Assembly (NCBI GenBank): GCA_956465555.1
Contig: OY101123.1
Location: 1,302,001 to 1,366,000, forward strand
Reading direction: 5' to 3'
Length of the DNA stretch: 64,000 nt
Source of the DNA: Nitzschia sp. pyKryTriq1
Taxonomy: Eukaryota; Bacillariophyta; Bacillariophyceae; Bacillariales; Bacillariaceae
The position numbers were made by a program, and so were the translations under genes. A model generated the notes under the pieces. The model saw only the letters and a program-made list of their open reading frames with translations. It was not told the origin of the DNA and did not search any database. This document shows positions 10,981-33,542 of this stretch, piece after piece (the first letter of the stretch is position 1; every line of letters starts with the position of its first letter).

Positions 10981-10996
10981 CGCTGCTTTACGATAT
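10981..10996. repeat. Copy of the dispersed CGCTGCTTTACGATAT core
   Basis: The 16-base core CGCTGCTTTACGATAT is also found at 52716-52731, and with one or two changes at 23649-23663, 23874-23890 (reverse) and 30923-30938. Here only the core and a short flanking CTCTACTC stretch are seen, with no second arm, so this may be a remnant. Confidence 0.6.
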
Positions 10997-23188: not shown

Positions 23189-23589
23189 CTTCTTTGAATA
23201 GTTCTGGGAAAATACGTTTGGAAACAGCCAAGAATGAGCAACCACAACAACAACAAAGGAAGCGTCGGTATTAGTCGAGTACGCTTCTGTACAGTTCGTA
23301 CCGTACGGTATGTTCGTACAAGTATGTAGTACCACAAACCCGACCCGCTTCCGTACCGTATTGTCTGTGATCTGCCAGGAAGGCGCGCAGCGAGCGAGAG
23401 AAGGCAGGCGATGACACGCGCGTAATCCCAACAAATTTCGCGGAGTGCAGTGCGCGTTGATTTCAAGATCGTAGTAGTCGGCAGTCTTTTACGACTAGCA
23501 CGACCTTGTCACTTTTGGGGGGCAGGGCTGGAGCCGTCGAATTGGAATGGCGAATGAGATGAGGAGTGAGTCGGTCCTCTACTCCGGCG

Positions 23590-23990
23590 GAAGAGAGATT
23601 CATTGCTCTCGACCGTCAAGGTAGTAACTAAATTAGACAGCACTGTTTCGCTGCTTTACGATACTCTAGTAGTAGTAGACTACTAGAGCTCTACTCGTAC
23701 GGTAGAGTAGAAGAGTCGTCGTCGTCGTCAGAAAATACGATACTCTGCATCCGTACGTGTGCCGGTACGGACTGGAAGAGCGTCGCTCGCGTAGTAGAGT
23801 ACAGTACTTGTAGCTACCTGATAGTAGTCCACTACTACTACTCTAGTAGTAGTAGTAGAGTAGAGTAGAGTACTATATCGTAAAGCAGCGAGAATAGTAG
23901 AGAGTATTACAATGATCATAAAGCAGCGAAAAAGTGCGCTGTCTAATTTAGCTACTACCTTGACGCTCGAGAGCACTGAATCTCTCCTGC
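23590..23990. mobile_element. MITE-like inverted-repeat element
   Basis: Two arms of about 74 bases face each other: left 23590-23663 and right 23917-23990. Read in the same direction they share the blocks GAGAGATTCA, GCTCTCGA, CGTCAAGGTAGTA, CTAAATTAGACAG and TTTCGCTGCTTTA, with few differences. A further reverse copy of the inner end lies at 23874-23890. The interior is non-coding and is built of TAGTAG and GTAC units. No transposase is present. I saw no clear target-site duplication. Pieces of the same arm occur at 30901-30940 and 52711-52926. Confidence 0.75.
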
Positions 23991-24036
23991 GCCGACACGA
24001 CAACATTGATCCATGAATAGCCACGCCAGACAGTCC

Positions 24037-24162: not shown

Positions 24163-26940
24163 TTACAACCCTTCCTCCATTCCGGAAGAATCCTGAAGCT
24201 CTTCGATAGAACCGTCGAGAGGAGGCAACTCTTTACTGATGTGGAGCAGGTGAGTGATCTCGTCGTTTGTACTGTATTGGAGAAAAGAGGGGAACAGGTT
24301 AATCAACTGAATGAAACTGTCAACAAATCTTTCAGGGGCGATGGAAAGGTACTCACTTTGTCAAAGGATACGAACAGATGAAATCCACGAATTGCTCTCC
24401 CTCTTTATCGAAATGTAGACGAGTAGCGCAACTAGCATTGCCTTTGCACACTTCCTCCAAGTCGTATGGCGCGCTTGGGTGGTCATCAGTAACCTCTCCT
24501 TCCAATGCCTTGAACAACTCCATTCCTTCAACTTCAACCTGCGTGTACTTGGTAAGCTTTGTCCAAGGTTCGTTGATACTGACAATCTGGAACGGGGGTT
24601 TTGCCAGCGTAATAGCGTGGGGTTCAGGGGCAGATGGAGACAAAGCCATTTCCAAACTACCCGGGATAATTTGAGCGGACATTTCACTGCCACTAGCCCG
24701 TTCTAGTTGCTGCATAAAACCCATGGCGTCGTACGTCATTTCCAAGCTCTTAAGCTTGTTGCGCTGGGTGAAGGTTGCACGAAGCATCCCAGGCATCACG
24801 CACTCGGCAAGAGCTCCACACAAGACGGCGTCGTGTGTCCTGAAGACGAATGGACACATGAGAATGTCGTCCATCAAAATCATGTCATCTTCGTTCAGAT
24901 GATAGTATGCACGGATCTGTGACCTATTACTTGATGAATTGCTTGAAGAAGTCTCGACGTCCCCAGAAATCATAACTGGGCGCCCCTCGACTCTTCCATT
25001 TGAAGAAGTACCACTAGATCGTGTTGGTTCATTTTGATCCTGGGCTTGAGATCCCATTTGATCCGGGCGTGGATTCATGTCAGTAGTTGCCTTCGCTGTT
25101 GACGGTAAGTCTTGCGGCAGACCACGTTTTCCAAGTCCAGCAAACGGTGGAAGTGCAATAGCTGGGGCCACAGAAAGCCTTACGCTTCCATTTCTGGGGG
25201 GCACCGGGAGTTGTGTGGCGAATGGGCGGACATTGTGCGAGATACCTCCTGCCTTGGCGATGTTCTGTGGGAGATGGGAGCCCGAGGCGACTGCTGCGGC
25301 CGCTGCACCAGCAGTTGGCCCCGCTCTTTCCTTGTTGGCCAGCTCGCTCTTTCGCCGTTTAGATGGTCTGGTGTCCTTCGTGGCAGCAGCCGAATCATCT
25401 CCAGAAGATGAATCGGTACTGATGCGTTTCATCTCCTCGGCGCTTGTGTTAGACTCCTCGGGGGAGTCTTCGGAAGGTGAACTACTACCCCTCTCGGAGT
25501 CTTGGAGCTTTGGATCAGGTAGAGGCTTGGCGTGATAGTCATGAAAGGCTCCTGCTGCATTCTCGTCTTGTGAACCAGATTTGCTCACATTCTGACTACC
25601 TGCCAGTATCTGGGCTTGCTTTTGCTTTGCTTTCGAATCCTCCCCACTAGATCCTCCATTGTTAGAGGAGTTTGCCGAGCTTGATGATAGACTTGAAACA
25701 GCATGCTGAAACCGGCCGTTCTGCCGGCCAATATTCTGGGGCATCATCTTGGTCCCGGTCCGCTCCTCTTCCTTGGCGAAGAAGTCTTCTCGCTTTATTT
25801 GCATCCATCGAATGCTCCTCGAGCCGAGACCTTCAATCATCACAGCTACACTCGCTGCATCCGAGATGACTGCATCCACTCCTCGGGACATTCGACATTC
25901 CTGAAAATTTCAATAAGTCAGAGATTCGTTAGTACACACAGTTGTTTTCTTTGGAAGAAACCGCCACTCCGACAGAGCAAGACATTAATTCTCACGTGTT
26001 CGATCTCGCTTCGACGGAAAGAGCGATAGGGTGTCACAGGCTGTTTCAGCCACACATCATCCTCTAGGAGCGTACACCACTTCCGCCGGTCACGTTCGTT
26101 GCTTGAATGGAACTGCAAGAAGCTACGGATCACAGCGCGTCGTACATTCTGCATCTCAGCTAAATGCTGGATAGCAACACGTCGCTGTCTCACTTCCTCC
26201 GTACGCTCAGAATGCAGTCCCTCCACAAGCTCCTTCAGCTTTTGAACATATGCTTTCTTTCGAAGCCTTGTTGACTTGGCGTGCTCTCGATTTCGATCCC
26301 TATTCTGCTTGGCCCGTTCAGCAGAACTCATATCCTTCCTTCGTTTCTTGTCATAGCCATCATAGCTATAATCATCGTTCTCAGCAACGGCCTCTGCAGC
26401 AGCAGCCGCTGCCATCAGGTGTGCATGTATCGATGAGCTACCCTGCCCTCCGTTTGGACCCCCGGGAAAGATTAGAGACCCAGTGTGATTCGGCATTTGT
26501 ATCTGTGGTATGTACTGCTGGCCGGACTGTACATGTTGGACTTGGTTCCCCATGGCATCCGTGTACAACGTTGCCGTGCCGTGCACACCGGATGAGGAGG
26601 ACGGCATTACCTGAGGAACAATCGCCGAGTGTTGAAAGTGCGTTTGTATTGTGGGCACAGCCTGCGTCCCAGCGGTGCCACTCGCAGCAAATACATCGGG
26701 CATCGCATAGAATGCGCCTGGGTTTGTTAATATCGCCGCGGGAGGAAACAGAGGAGACGCCGCCGCGGCCGCTGCTAGTGCTGGATTTGTCATTAACCCC
26801 ATGAGCATCGTATGATTGTGCGCCCCCATCGCATTCCCATTCCCTGCTGCCATTCCATTAGGATTTGGAGCTATTGGTGCTGGTGCTGGACTCCTTTGCG
26901 GTTGCCCACTAGGTTGATTCGGTTCTCGTTGCTGGTCCAT
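24163..26940 (-). CDS. bZIP-PAS transcription factor A
   Basis: Three exons: 25996-26940, 24357-25900 and 24163-24271 (donors GTGAGA and GTGAGT; acceptors TTTCAG and ATACAG), giving 865 residues from the ATG at 26940. The N-terminal 200 residues are Ala/Gly/Pro/Gln-rich. A bZIP domain starts near 207, with basic motif NREHAKSTRLRKK followed by a helical region. Next is a conserved WLKQPVTPYRSFRRSE block that crosses the first splice site into ECRMSRGVDAV. Residues 390-640 are low-complexity. Residues about 648-748 form a conserved block (MCPFVFRT, CGALAECVMPGM, YDAMGFMQQL), and residues about 749-850 a PAS domain (VSINEPWTKLTKYTQ to FVDFICSYPLT). The flavin-binding NCRFLQ motif of LOV/aureochrome proteins is absent. 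It is a nuclear DNA-binding regulator; the PAS ligand or partner is unknown. It is the paralogue of the gene at 28039, with identical intron positions and phases. Confidence 0.93.
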
Positions 26941-28038
26941 GGTGAGTTGGTTTATTGTGTGATAATATGCAGTCGATGTGGTGCCAGTAGTGACCAGGGG
27001 GTTCCTTTTGTACTGCATGAAAGAGGAGAAAGTAAGGTCAGTCGTCAAGCAAGGCCTTCGATAATTCAATCTGTTCCTCACATCTTCTTCTCGCTCGCAT
27101 GTTGAATTATGGGAACGTTAAGTGTAAAAATCGTGCGTACGTGTGGCGCGTTTAGAATCTCCCTTAAATCCACGTCATCTTGGGTCCTGAAACCGTGATG
27201 ATGTCATTCTTGCATCCCTGACGGCTCCTACTGTCGTTAATTGGAACATTTTCAAGTGCGTCATTCCTGCTCAAATTTTAATTAACAGTCTCATTATCTT
27301 GCCCTGGTTTCTCATAAGGCTCAAAAACCTTTTCGTAGAATCTCTACTGTGCGTACTGCGTTGAAATTGTCCCAGCTGTCTCTTCCTACATTTCTACTGC
27401 TTCTACGGGCACGCGGGCGACATGACGACTGTGATGATCTCAATAATGCGTTCGAGTAGCTTTAAATAAGAAAGCTTCTTGGGAGGGCGCTTTTAAAAAC
27501 GATCAACGCAAGTTCTTCGTGCAGTAGTTGTTGACGCAGTTTTACGAATGAAACGAAAGCCAAGTGCGTACGTGAGACCATCAAGGGCTATAATGAGCTG
27601 CCCCAGATGGATAGCAGACAGCTCAATAATGACGCGAACGAAGGACGCCATAATTATTGAACAAAGAAGGGTACACATACCTACCGGTAGCATTATTGTT
27701 GTCTCTCGCTCGAACAGGAAGGCTCGATTTTAGGAGACAACGAAGGTCTCGAGAGAATCATCTGAACGTGTCTCTATTTTCGTACCGGTATGGACACAAG
27801 TAGACAGCCAAACTCGCAGCAACAGCAAACGTTCCACAGGTCACACCATCCCCACTTCAGCTCACAACTCACAAATACTCTTCAAATCATCGCCTCAGGC
27901 TATCACGAGACGATAACGCACTACTATCAAACTTGAAATAGCTCAAGTCCCTCCATCCCCCTCGCGAACAAGACAACAAGCAAAAGCCTCTAATAGAAAG
28001 CGTGTGATTCTTCGAGATCCGCACAGTATCATTCATCA
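26941..28038. promoter_or_regulatory. Shared upstream region of the divergent bZIP-PAS pair
   Basis: The region of 1,098 bp between the two start codons must hold both promoters. The bZIP core ACGTCA (TGACGT on the other strand) occurs at 27172-27177 in CCACGTCATC, and related half sites occur nearby (GATGTCAT at about 27199, TGACGC at about 27532 and 27634). These fit bZIP binding and would allow auto- or cross-regulation, but such short motifs arise by chance. The pyrimidine-rich stretch ending in TTTCATGCAG just above gene A (about 27010-27025 on the minus strand) could be a 5' UTR acceptor. Confidence 0.45.
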
Positions 28039-30425
28039 ATGTCGAACCAGCCTCATTCTTCCTCGCAGTATCCTCAACAAGGACAGCATTTGGTCCCACA
28101 GGTGATGCCGAATTCACAGGTACAGGGTCCACTCCTCGGTTTTAACTCCCAGCAGACAACCCACGCTAGTCACCCCTTCAACGGACCACCAGGGAATCAT
28201 CCGAGTTCAGCAATGTCACAGTTCACACCGATACAGCCTTCAGCCGTCCCCGGCCAGGTAGCAGCTTGGAATCATCATGCCATGGCATCTCAGCAACATC
28301 ATAGCAACAACAACCACAACAACATGCATGGCTCCGCTGCAGCCGCAGCGTATCATATACCAGCGAACTGGATCGGAGGGCAGCAGATGGCGATGAGCTT
28401 TCAACATCAAGGTCATCAAGCAATTCCCGCTCAAGGGGCCGGGGCAAATATGGCGTCGTCCCCTTCGAAGAAGAAAAGGAAATCTGGGTCTACCCCCATC
28501 CCAGACCTGGCAGCCAGTGGTTCCAGTCTCGTGCCACCTGATCTAGATATGAAGAATCCAAAGGAGAGTCGTGCATCCAAACGTCGGTCATCCATCGGCA
28601 GCTTATCAAATACCGAGGGTAGCATGGAAAACTCTACATCACCTTCGAACAAAATGGATCACAATAGAGAACGAAACCGCGAACATGCAAGAACGACCAG
28701 GATGCGCAAGAAAGCGTATGTGCAAAAACTAAAAGAGATGGCGGATGGATTACGAGCAATCCAAACGGACGAGATTCGTCAACGTCGGTTGGCCGTTCAT
28801 CAAATGAATGAAATGCAAAAAACACGGAAGAGACTCATCCAGAAGTTTTTGCACTGCCATGCAAACTACGAAGAGGACCCGCATGAGTGGAGCCTCATGG
28901 TGGAGAACAACTTTTGGTTAAAGCAGCCCGTGACGCCGTTTCGATCGTTTCGTCGATCGGAAGTAGAAAGGGTACGATTCCTCGTCATCAGACATCCATA
29001 TACATATCCAACTTTGTTCTTATCCTCACACTGTTTCTATTTTTTTGTTTCAGGACTGTCGGATGGTTCGTGGTATCGAAGCAGTCATTTGCGATTCAGC
29101 AAGCATTGCGACCATGATACAGCGTACAGGCTGTCGGAATGCTCGTTGGCAGCGAATCAAGCGAAGGCAGTTTGAGCGTTGCCTTGAATCATCTCGTATA
29201 CACCTGTCACATATCGACGAGAATCAACGTGTTGAATCTAGCCTTTCCAGCTCTTCAAGCACAGACTCATCATATGGCTCCGGCTCTCCAACAAATGACT
29301 TGGGCCTAATAAGCCCCCCAACGGCAATTCAAACAACGAATGCCGCATCGGATGTCAAGAAGGTTAGCTCGTCAAGTGGTGGGGAGAATAGCATTAACCA
29401 CAAACGTAAGCGAAACGAAGAAACGACAGAAACTGAGCGATCTGAAGGCCATATTTCAACCTCGAGTGAGACAGAAGTCGAACCGGCACAAAAGGCAGTC
29501 AAGACAAGTGGATTGCCAAGCAACATTGCTCGGTCTGGCGGGATCGTCCATAATGTCACCCCGGTGATGAATGTCATTCCTTCCAGCAAAGTACGCACGG
29601 GAGTGAAGCCCCAAAAGTCATCCCACATGCCCAGGCCCGGCCCATTCACTAGTGTTCAGTTGAAAGAAAAGAACACGCAAGAGATTGGGGCGTCTTATGC
29701 TATCAACGAAGATGACATGATCATGATCGACGATGTCTTGATGTGTCCGTTTGTGTATCGAACCAGAAACGCAGTACACTGTGGTGCTCTTGCCGACTGT
29801 GTCATGCCAGGTATGATCCGAGCGAATTTTTCAAAGCAAAACAAGCTCCAAAACATGGAAATTGTGTACGATGCAATGGGGTTTATGCAGCAGCTTGACG
29901 GATCCAACGGTGGTCAAGTCACAGCACAGGTGATCCCAGGTAGTTTGGAGATGGCACTCATGAGCTCTCCGGACGAAGCGCGAGTAATCACGGAAGCTCG
30001 TCCACCTTTCTCTGTGGTTCACGTGAACGAATCCTGGACGCGACTTACCAAGTATACCCAACTAGAAACAGAGGGACGCCCACTTCTCGAATTGTTGGAG
30101 GGCGAGCGTACTGATCCTTCAGCCAAAATCAGGCCAGGGAAACCAAAACATATGCTGGAGGAAGTAGCAAAAGGAAGGAGCGCATGCTCCACCAATCTTC
30201 ACTATGACAAGAGTGGGGCCACTTTCGTTGATTTCATGTGCTCATATCCTTTGACAAAGTAAGTACTTGGATATCGCTGTTGAGGGCTTCTCGGCTTCTG
30301 CAGTATTGCTAATCTCAAGCGCCTATCTCTCTCCCCCCCTCCCTCTCCCTCTTAGTTCCGATGACGAAATTAGTCATCTACTGCACGTGAATATGAAGTT
30401 GTCGGCCGAACATGCACTAATCTGA
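28039..30425 (+). CDS. bZIP-PAS transcription factor B
   Basis: Three exons: 28039-28971, 29054-30258 and 30356-30425 (donors GTACGA and GTAAGT; acceptors TTTCAG and TCTTAG), giving 735 residues. The introns are 82 and 97 bp and interrupt exactly the same codons, in the same phases, as in the divergent paralogue A. The N-terminal 200 residues are Gln/His/Ser/Asn-rich. The bZIP domain begins near 204 with NREHARTTRMRKKAYVQKLKE. The block WLKQPVTPFRSFRRSE follows, then DCRMVRGIEAV after the first intron. The conserved middle block (MCPFVYRT, CGALADCVMPGM, YDAMGFMQQL) and the PAS domain (VNESWTRLTKYTQ to FVDFMCSYPLT, about 627-735) are present. As in A, no LOV-type cysteine motif is seen. The two may form hetero- or homodimers. 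Confidence 0.93.
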
Positions 30426-31456
30426 TCATACCGTAGCCTACTGATCTACCGGTTGCGATACCGTATCCTGATTATCACGCCTGTCCGTGACTAGTAATTT
30501 CTTCTTCGGCAAAGATCATTGAAAGGACGTCTCTACTTGCAGAGAGCGGTCTTTTTTGTTTCAACAATGTGACGAAAATCACAACCCGCCCCTTATCTGC
30601 GGCTGTAAACTCGCCCCAAAGCGGGACGATACGGAAAACCAATGTATCAACAAGATCCACGACAGCTTTTTAGACGAATTGTAGGTTTTCCGGTTTTGTG
30701 CACTGTCTACTACTACTCCACTAGTAGAGCTAGCTAGTTATGGCAAGGCAAAAAGCAAAGCAATGGAAGATAAGCTTGCTATTTTATGTGTCTCCTGGCA
30801 GCAGCCCAATCTTTTGTTGAATCGCGCAAGCGAGCTCGACGAAGGATGCAAGCACAGGACTACTAGCTAGAGGTTCCATCGTCTCTGTAGATGTGGAGAC
30901 TAAATTTGAAAGTGCACTTTTTAGCTGCTTTACGATATAGTGTCTACTAATTATAGTTGTCTCCATGCGAATTGACTCACTTGTTAGGAGAGGTACAAGA
31001 ACGCAACTGTAGTTAGCTTTCGTAGCATTATTTAGCATCCTCGCATTCGCCGTACAAGTACAGTACTTCTTGGTACCGGCGGTACTACTGTTTTATTTCT
31101 TTTATAATGCGTATATGTACCGGTAGCGTTAGTACGTGGCAGTAGCATGCATCAGCAATAAATATCATGCGCGCAGCACCGAGGCTCATATCAGGGCCAT
31201 TCCAAGCCAATCAGATGTAAGGCAAGTTGAACAAGACATGGCTTTAATAAGTAAATTTCTTCGCATGCGAAGGCATTCACTTATCACCACAGCCTGACAG
31301 GGATTGTGAATGAAGCGATGATCGATGATGCTCGTCTACCCAATCGCCTTTTTATAGCCAATACGCGTTTGAGATCGGGTATTGGGTTACGACCCATCAG
31401 TTTGCGGAAAGCCACAAAAATAAATCATCACCATGAGACCCCCCCTATCTTCAGTA
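30426..31456. other. 1 kb intergenic region with one arm of the dispersed repeat
   Basis: No convincing gene. It includes one arm of the repeat family at about 30888-30940 and GTAC-rich DNA at about 31060-31140. A minus frame at 30784-31038 runs through the repeat and is not taken as a gene. Confidence 0.55.
30888..30940. repeat. Single arm of the inverted-repeat family
   Basis: GACTAAATTTGA, then GTGCACTTTTTAGCTGCTT and TACGATATAG, matches the inner half of the arms at 23590-23990. No opposing arm is obvious within a few hundred bases, so this is a decayed or solo copy. Confidence 0.55.
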
Positions 31457-32570: not shown

Positions 32571-33542
32571 ATGACTCGCCAATATCAAACATCTGTCTCC
32601 AGCCGCGAAAGAAACCGTGTCCATGCCAGGAAAACTCGCCAGCGAAAGAAGGAACAAATGCAGACCCTCTCGAATCGCGCGGAGGAACTCAAGAACGAGC
32701 AAATTCGTTTGAAGCAGAGCATCAACGAAAAGAACACGGCCAGTATCCTGGTTGGTCTTTTTGCATCCAGTGATAGCGGTGGCACACAACAGGCTGAAGA
32801 TCCCACGGTGGAAGCCTTGCTCAAGCGACCTGCGGAAGAAATTCCTGATGCCGCCAATCTTCCGGAGCTCCCGGCATTGATTCTTCCCGGGCAGCACAAC
32901 TCGAAGAAGCACCAGGACCCCGACGCCATTGTTTCCAAAGAAGAGCTCCCAGACGATGGTATCGACTATGAACTCCTCGGAAAGGATCGATCAAAATGCA
33001 CGCCGGCGGAACTTGATCAAATTCGCAGAGAACGGAACCGAATGCACGCAAAACGAACCCGTGATCGCAAGCGGCTTTTCATGGAGGAAATGGCTGAAAT
33101 GTGCAAACGTCTCCAGGATGAGAACGAACTTTTACAGGATCATCTCGATGGGCTGAACGGTCGCCCCTCAAAGCGAAAAGAAGCCACCGGTTCCATCGTC
33201 TCTCCGACTCTTTCGTCGTCGAATCCCGAGCAGGCCCCATCCGAACTTACCATGCCTCCGCGAAGCGGTGATGCCGACAGAGACAGAGCGTCCGAGAAGA
33301 AAGCGCCCAAAAGTCAGCACGGCGTTACTTTTGATCAAATCAAGACCTTGTTGGAAGCCGCCAGCACTTTCTCTTCGGCTGTTTCTGAGTCAACGAACTC
33401 CTCCGAGGCCGGCAGTGTTTCGGATCTTGCCGAGCACCAGTCTTCGAAGATAAGAAGGCTCGATTCTTCAAACGCGAAATCGTCCTCCCATGTCCCCGAT
33501 TCCATAACAACCACTCACATTCCCACTGCTGTTGGATGTTAA
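32571..33542 (+). CDS. Transcription factor with two bZIP domains
   Basis: Single-exon protein of 323 residues; the ATG at 32571 follows CACCGACC. It has two separate bZIP basic regions. The first (about residues 8-55) reads SRERNRVHARKTRQRKKEQ followed by heptads LSNRAEEL, IRLKQSI. The second (about 152-200) reads RRERNRMHAKRTRDRKRLF followed by MAEMCKRLQDENELLQDHL. Both keep the bZIP pattern N-x-x-H-A-x-x-x-R. The region between them is Pro/Glu-rich, and the C-terminal third is Ser-rich and low-complexity. Two DNA-binding/dimer helices in one chain could permit intramolecular pairing or binding of two sites. Nuclear regulator; targets unknown. It lies about 2 kb beyond bZIP-PAS B and is a third bZIP gene in the cluster. 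Confidence 0.9.
   Translation: MTRQYQTSVSSRERNRVHARKTRQRKKEQMQTLSNRAEELKNEQIRLKQSINEKNTASILVGLFASSDSGGTQQAEDPTVEALLKRPAEEIPDAANLPELPALILPGQHNSKKHQDPDAIVSKEELPDDGIDYELLGKDRSKCTPAELDQIRRERNRMHAKRTRDRKRLFMEEMAEMCKRLQDENELLQDHLDGLNGRPSKRKEATGSIVSPTLSSSNPEQAPSELTMPPRSGDADRDRASEKKAPKSQHGVTFDQIKTLLEAASTFSSAVSESTNSSEAGSVSDLAEHQSSKIRRLDSSNAKSSSHVPDSITTTHIPTAVGC

Follow-up and report, generated by a model that had tools for sequence, protein, structure and literature searches.

A divergent pair of diatom bZIP-PAS genes with a split middle domain and a LOV-related PAS domain that lacks the photoactive cysteine

The gene pair and its origin

The 64,000-nucleotide stretch of the Nitzschia sp. pyKryTriq1 genome analyzed here (assembly GCA_956465555.1, contig OY101123.1, positions 1,302,001 to 1,366,000; hereafter the window) contains two genes, designated A and B, that are transcribed away from each other and that each encode a protein with a bZIP region, a middle domain and a C-terminal PAS domain. 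The exon models are predictions from the DNA sequence; they comprise three exons in each gene, and the two genes diverge from a gap of 1098 bp.

24163..26940, minus strand: gene A, bZIP-(middle domain)-PAS, 865 amino acids, spliced translation with GT-AG introns
26940-25996, 25900-24357 and 24271-24163, minus strand: exons of gene A, predicted from sequence
25901..25995, minus strand: gene A intron 1, 95 bp, phase 0, GT-AG
24356-24272, minus strand: gene A intron 2, 85 bp, phase 2, within the PAS domain, GT-AG
28039..30425, plus strand: gene B, bZIP-(middle domain)-PAS, 735 amino acids, spliced translation with GT-AG introns
28039-28971, 29054-30258 and 30356-30425, plus strand: exons of gene B, predicted from sequence
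28972..29053, plus strand: gene B intron 1, 82 bp, phase 0, at the same codon as in A, GT-AG
30259-30355, plus strand: gene B intron 2, 97 bp, phase 2, within the PAS domain, GT-AG

The outline of the locus given by the original prediction, a divergent pair with a common bZIP, two conserved blocks and a C-terminal PAS in the layout of a known stramenopile class, is borne out: the spliced genes span exactly 24163-30425, and the PAS domain lies C-terminal to the bZIP in both proteins. BLASTP of A against B aligns the bZIP and the block following it (A 205-355, B 201-351) at 53.6% identity (E 1e-55), and the block before the PAS together with the PAS itself (A 632-845, B 510-728) at 58.0% identity (E 7e-87). 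The two introns do occupy identical codons and phases, as had been claimed; intron 1 falls in phase 0 at a homologous codon, between SEIEH and ECRM in A and between SEVER and DCRM in B, and intron 2 in phase 2 inside the Asn codon of PLTN in both genes, an alignment that was also inspected visually.

The bZIP regions and the promoter region common to the two genes are as follows.

26143..26304, minus strand: gene A bZIP, residues 213-266, basic region NREHAKSTR
28663..28824, plus strand: gene B bZIP, residues 209-262, basic region NREHARTTR
26941..28038, no strand: common 1098-bp region between the start codons (divergent promoter), with 7 TGACG half-sites

In both proteins the basic-region signature N-x7-R is intact and R-x9-L is present, while the Pfam bZIP_1 scores stay below the cut-off (18.2 and 17.6 bits vs 27.6). 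The zippers are short, since the d positions read L, L, E, A, M in A and in B, with Glu at the third d position in each. No g-e' charge pairs occur in A:A, B:B or A:B zippers (six combinations), so the sequence gives no preference for heterodimers. The original prediction had read the pair as co-regulated, here taken as one bidirectional promoter whose products are mainly obligate heterodimer partners. The head-to-head layout, with 1098 bp between the start codons, speaks for this view, as does the count of TGACG half-sites in the common promoter: 7 vs 2.5 expected, a number reached in 5 of 300 shuffles (nine patterns tried, uncorrected) and in 3.5% of overlapping 1098-bp windows across the 64-kb window. 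Against it stand the likeness of the two short zippers, in which nothing favors A:B over A:A or B:B, and a divergent spacing that may be ordinary in a compact genome; we therefore regard it as unlikely, with the TGACG excess a weak hint of co-regulation. Of the nine patterns, TGACGTCA, CACGTG, TTACGTAA and TGACTCA are absent from the common promoter, and only TGACG is modestly enriched. A scan for bacterial promoters and terminators, which has no meaning for the nuclear DNA of a diatom, returned nothing.

Across 371 conserved codons, A and B share 56% amino-acid identity, with a proportion of nonsynonymous differences (pN) of 0.29 and a proportion of synonymous differences (pS) of 0.81, the latter beyond correction; 70% of the 83 common fourfold sites differ. 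Because synonymous change is saturated, the duplication is old, and for the same reason the ratio of nonsynonymous to synonymous substitution rates (dN/dS), suggested earlier as a check, has no usable value. Even so, pN lies far below pS, which indicates constraint on the conserved regions of A and B and agrees with the earlier statement that selection is on the domains. Despite this overall saturation in the conserved blocks, an inverted 54-nt match of 81% (24338-24391 and 30224-30277) persists around the donor of intron 2.

When exon 2 of A and the bZIP region of B were searched against the whole genome (40.65 Mb in 20 contigs), two more family members containing the middle region came to light, referred to here as C5 and C1; the own-genome searches scored the best candidates only, and family counts are thus lower bounds. 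C5 (C5:1926645-1927613) lies in an open frame of 924 amino acids that encodes a bZIP, a contiguous middle domain and a PAS (L022:805-3579). C1 (L023; C1:698443 onward) encodes a bZIP and a contiguous middle domain, and a PAS was not found in it. With the C5 and C1 middle domains as genome queries no further clear member appeared, the weak match at C2:1966718 having an E of 0.36; no relative turned up in two scans of viral contigs. Intron 1 of the pair is absent from both C5 and C1, and intron 2 from C5; the introns of C1 lie elsewhere, one of them cutting the middle domain at a position not common to A or B. Being confined to the pair within this genome, the two introns single out A and B as sisters here.

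The identity and the common introns support the earlier proposal of paralogues from one ancestor in an inverted, head-to-head arrangement. A competing account is that A and B are dispersed copies later joined by a rearrangement. The flanks are compatible with it in that only short inverted matches are left, 23 nt at 23872-23894 and 30919-30941 plus CTA/TAG-rich repeats; the 23-nt match is itself repeat sequence, with its core also at 10982 and 52717. A dispersed foldback repeat just downstream of A also makes a rearrangement conceivable.

23585-23994: foldback element just downstream of gene A, with 64-nt arms that are 88% complementary

A 121-base query over the left arm of this element finds a dispersed family with at least 45 matches (40 of 374 candidates scored). 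Loss of flank similarity is nevertheless expected, because the synonymous sites are saturated, and A and B are adjacent and mutually closest among the members found here, for which a local duplication is the simpler explanation; later joining of dispersed copies is accordingly a distinctly unlikely origin. The A/B pair is real, old and divergent, a fresh example of the known bZIP-PAS class, and as such it is unremarkable: the duplication dates far back, and duplication has already been reported for the class.

The middle domain and its linker

Between the bZIP and the PAS, A and B contain two conserved blocks separated by low-complexity sequence.

25778..26142, minus strand: gene A middle domain, first half, residues 267-356, split by intron 1
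24926..25777, minus strand: gene A low-complexity insert, residues 357-640, absent from C5 and C1
25223..25279, minus strand: motif SHLPQNIAKAGGISHNVRP, conserved within the insert of A
24695..24925, minus strand: gene A middle domain, second half, residues 641-717
28825..29176, plus strand: gene B middle domain, first half, residues 263-352, split by intron 1
29177..29674, plus strand: gene B low-complexity insert, residues 353-518, absent from C5 and C1
29507..29563, plus strand: motif SGLPSNIARSGGIVHNVTP, conserved within the insert of B
29675..29905, plus strand: gene B middle domain, second half, residues 519-595

The original prediction was right that both blocks are conserved, but a single domain interrupted by an insert is the better reading of them. 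They are contiguous in C5 (164 amino acids) and C1 (162 amino acids), are divided by 284 residues in A and 166 in B, and have 20 of 177 alignment columns invariant across the four proteins. The C5 middle domain, used as a query, recovers A in two ordered pieces (query residues 3-54, E 4e-5; query residues 87-164, E 6e-7); of B it recovers just the second half (E 1e-5). On account of the contiguity in C5 and C1 and the ordered recovery of both A blocks, the identification of the two blocks as halves of one domain appears well supported. Separate short motifs, for example for transactivation or interaction, would be in keeping with the distance between the blocks and with the fact that no Pfam or NCBIfam family matches either; such motifs would have to lie in a single stretch in C5 and C1 and be found in order by the C5 query, and we regard this option as very unlikely.

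Profile comparison suggests what this domain may be. A profile of the four middle domains (A, B, C5 and C1) was aligned by hhalign with a 36-sequence SnoaL_2 profile, built from 30 of 52 SnoaL_2 matches (those with loci) and 7 of 8 own-genome matches after one sequence, L093, was dropped for an internal stop, and scored 29.7 over 125 columns. The controls are lower throughout. The highest of 200 column shuffles scored 19.7, the reversed profile 14.1, and a 22-sequence PAS profile (22 of the genome's 23 PAS matches, with that of C5 left out) 10.7. Among 91 single 165-residue decoy segments, drawn from 19 open frames of the window, the maximum was 18.5; it was 18.9 among 60 random four-sequence PAS profiles and 12.7 among 40 silicon-transporter profiles. 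Searched apart, the first half scores 21.8 against SnoaL (shuffle maximum 15.6) and the second 24.2 (shuffle maximum 17.2), with 100 shuffles for each, and the halves align collinearly with template columns 19-56 and 75-143.

Several results weigh against this assignment. The probability that hhalign itself gives for the SnoaL match is 54%. The score falls to 20.7 without C5 and to 23.7 without C1, and the profile of A and B alone reaches 16.7, inside the control range, so the NTF2-like call depends on C5 and C1. As single sequences, C5 (17.4), C1 (13.1) and B (10.5) stay within the range of the single decoys, and A, at 20.4, is the sole member above it. HMMER searches of Pfam, NCBIfam and PDB sequences leave the middle domain unmatched, and an AlphaFold model of B exon 2, with A exon 2 as the sole other row, has a mean predicted local distance difference test score (pLDDT) of 33 and lends no support to a fold. 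On balance we consider the middle domain to be probably NTF2/SnoaL-like, a judgment based on profile similarity.

The low-complexity parts had been said to differ completely between the two proteins. This is true of the N-terminal 200 residues, whose similarity is at chance level (local score 48, with 462 of 1000 shuffles at least as high). It does not extend to the interior linkers, which align with a local score of 120, a value reached by 0 of 1000 shuffles (maximum 88), and which contain a common motif, LPxNIAxxGGIxHNVxP (SHLPQNIAKAGGISHNVRP in A, SGLPSNIARSGGIVHNVTP in B). The motif is the safer part of this claim, because the shuffles do not preserve local composition.

The PAS domain and light sensing

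The C-terminal domains of A and B score below the Pfam PAS_9 cut-off (21.2 and 24.1 vs 27). When A, B and C5 are combined in one PAS profile, it matches PAS and LOV sequences of the PDB with a best E of 4.6e-10, Aureochrome1 standing at 3e-6 (among the best 60 of 133 matches, with E up to 1), and an hhalign comparison with 22 of the genome's 23 PAS matches gives a probability of 98%. By these comparisons the PAS assignment is firm.

24226..24619, minus strand: gene A PAS, residues 743-845, LOV-related, photoactive Cys gone, split by intron 2
29981..30401, plus strand: gene B PAS, residues 621-728, LOV-related, photoactive Cys gone, split by intron 2

The two domains were aligned with seven LOV domains of the same genome that keep NCRFLQG and both Asn, and compared at the columns of the photoactive Cys and of the flavin-contact Asn, Asn and Gln. 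At the Cys column (GXNCRFLQ), A has Phe and B has Leu, where all five bZIP-LOV loci found have Cys; a one-residue gap leaves the register of this column uncertain by one, and there is no Cys in that loop of A or B. The two Asn columns hold His and Asp in both proteins, and Asn in all seven LOV domains aligned. At the Gln column A and C5 have Ser and B has Asn, but this position says little: Gln stands there in no more than three of the seven LOV rows, some of which end early at the edge of their exon. C5 retains a Cys at the LOV position, within KASCRILEG, although Arg and Asp replace its two Asn.

With the Cys and both Asn gone from A and B, flavin-based blue-light sensing by their PAS domains is unlikely; more probably these domains bind a different ligand or a partner. 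The notion that A and B are working photoreceptor transcription factors like the aureochromes draws on the order of bZIP and PAS/LOV, on LOV domains being the best-scoring solved relatives of the PAS (Aureochrome1 coming lower in the list) and on the term potentially light-sensitive, used of bZIP-PAS proteins in a passage of PMC9054022, but the replaced residues, set against five bZIP-LOV loci of the same genome that keep GRNCRFLQG and both Asn, make it highly improbable. With the light-sensing Cys gone, the relation to aureochromes drawn in the original prediction is limited to the domain layout.

At least five loci in the genome combine a bZIP match with an adjacent LOV-type PAS that contains GRNCRFLQG and are aureochrome-type genes. 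Two LOV-like PAS genes (L022:4221-5510 and L024:2809-3618) are, as judged by eye, without the Cys and have TNYT at the first Asn position; one of these TNYT genes adjoins the C5 bZIP-PAS frame, about 0.6 kb downstream of it.

Elsewhere in the window, a third bZIP gene of 323 amino acids (32571-33542, plus strand) lies 2.1 kb downstream of gene B; it has two separate basic regions, NRVHARKTR and NRMHAKRTR, and matches Pfam bZIP_2 at 46.5 bits in two stretches. Outside the window, another closely linked pair of bZIP matches, at C7:1075172 (plus strand) and C7:1076545 (minus strand), is 1.2 kb apart, the two facing each other. The genome also contains at least eight silicon-transporter loci, seven of which cover nearly the whole model with E below 1e-260, and three silicon-transporter matches fall within 10 kb at C1:307304-317295. 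This gene family is a hallmark of diatoms, to which these loci assign the genome.

Proposed role and comparison with known proteins

Taken together, we propose, with a probability of roughly 0.7, that a single diatom bZIP-PAS transcription-factor gene was duplicated head-to-head long ago and that both copies have probably stayed functional, with purifying selection acting on them. The two proteins would most likely use their aureochrome-like basic regions to bind specific DNA sequences as dimers. Between bZIP and PAS there would be one further folded domain, probably NTF2/SnoaL-like, with a long disordered linker that in this pair appears to be inserted in one of its loops. The LOV-related PAS at the C terminus would have lost its light chemistry and would now probably serve as a ligand- or protein-binding and dimerization module. 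The pair may well belong to the diel/circadian network, by analogy with P. tricornutum bZIP7 and the bZIP-PAS genes of T. pseudonana. DNA binding, dimerization, the NTF2-like fold and the diel function, like any division of labor between A and B, are what we infer from these features. To the pair as first described, the present analysis makes three useful additions: a middle domain that is one but split, a motif conserved in the linker, and a LOV relative that looks blind. A PAS that resembles a blind LOV, next to a candidate ligand-binding domain, turns the question of light sensing into a direct test of flavin binding and structure.

A bolder extension, which is possible but doubtful, would make the diatom bZIP-PAS proteins a three-part class of their own (bZIP, NTF2-like domain, blind LOV), perhaps descended from an aureochrome-type photoreceptor that lost its light chemistry, in which sensing has moved to a ligand pocket in a so far unannotated domain. 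In this pair, a disordered linker with a conserved motif of its own would run through the new sensor domain, and each copy would regulate the other by way of TGACG sites in the common promoter.

The proposed diel role rests on published expression patterns. Two of the four bZIP-PAS genes of T. pseudonana hold a day-night periodicity at all iron levels (PMC6738920). In P. tricornutum, both overexpression and knock-out of RITMO1 strongly alter the rhythm that bZIP7 shows under constant light, and bZIP7, regulated by the clock protein RITMO1, is discussed among potential clock components (PMC12018780).

Among known proteins, the diatom bZIP-PAS genes include bZIP6 and bZIP7, and the bZIP7 homologue is duplicated in N. 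putrida (passages of PMC9054022). These proteins (bZIP6 and bZIP7 of P. tricornutum, those of T. pseudonana including bZIP7b, and the N. putrida bZIP7 duplicates) resemble A and B in joining a bZIP with a PAS, a comparison made by description only. The portions of the descriptions at hand leave a head-to-head layout, a middle domain and lost LOV residues unmentioned, which does not prove these to be new. The middle domain is likewise not described in the sections compared of the bZIP-PAS literature (PMC9054022, PMC6738920, PMC12018780, PMC7273347, PMC4046829 and the comparative study of microalgal transcription factors, PMC4827209). A literature search found no diatom work that joins a bZIP with an NTF2-like or SnoaL domain, the work on bZIP and SnoaL being fungal or on mycotoxins, as judged by titles.

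In the oomycetes, PlBZP32 and PsBZPc32 also have a bZIP followed by a PAS (PMC7273347, PMC4046829, from excerpts of both). The P. sojae bZIP candidates are described as having no extra domains except one PAS (a passage of PMC4046829). In PlBZP32 the bZIP occupies residues 246-294 and the PAS 304-376, with 9 residues between them vs 476 in A and 358 in B, so that by the coordinates given in that excerpt (PMC7273347) there is no room for a middle domain; its authors state there that the function of the PAS and the signal it receives are not understood.

The likeness of the middle domain to the NTF2-like superfamily (SnoaL_2, PF12680) is a collinear, profile-level similarity over 125 columns. It differs from that superfamily in having no Pfam or NCBIfam match and, in A and B, in carrying the low-complexity insert, and no catalytic function is implied by the similarity. 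With the aureochromes (bZIP-LOV), finally, A and B share the layout, an NREHA-type basic region and a LOV-related PAS; they differ from them in the loss of the photoactive Cys and of both flavin-contact Asn, and in the presence of the extra middle domain.

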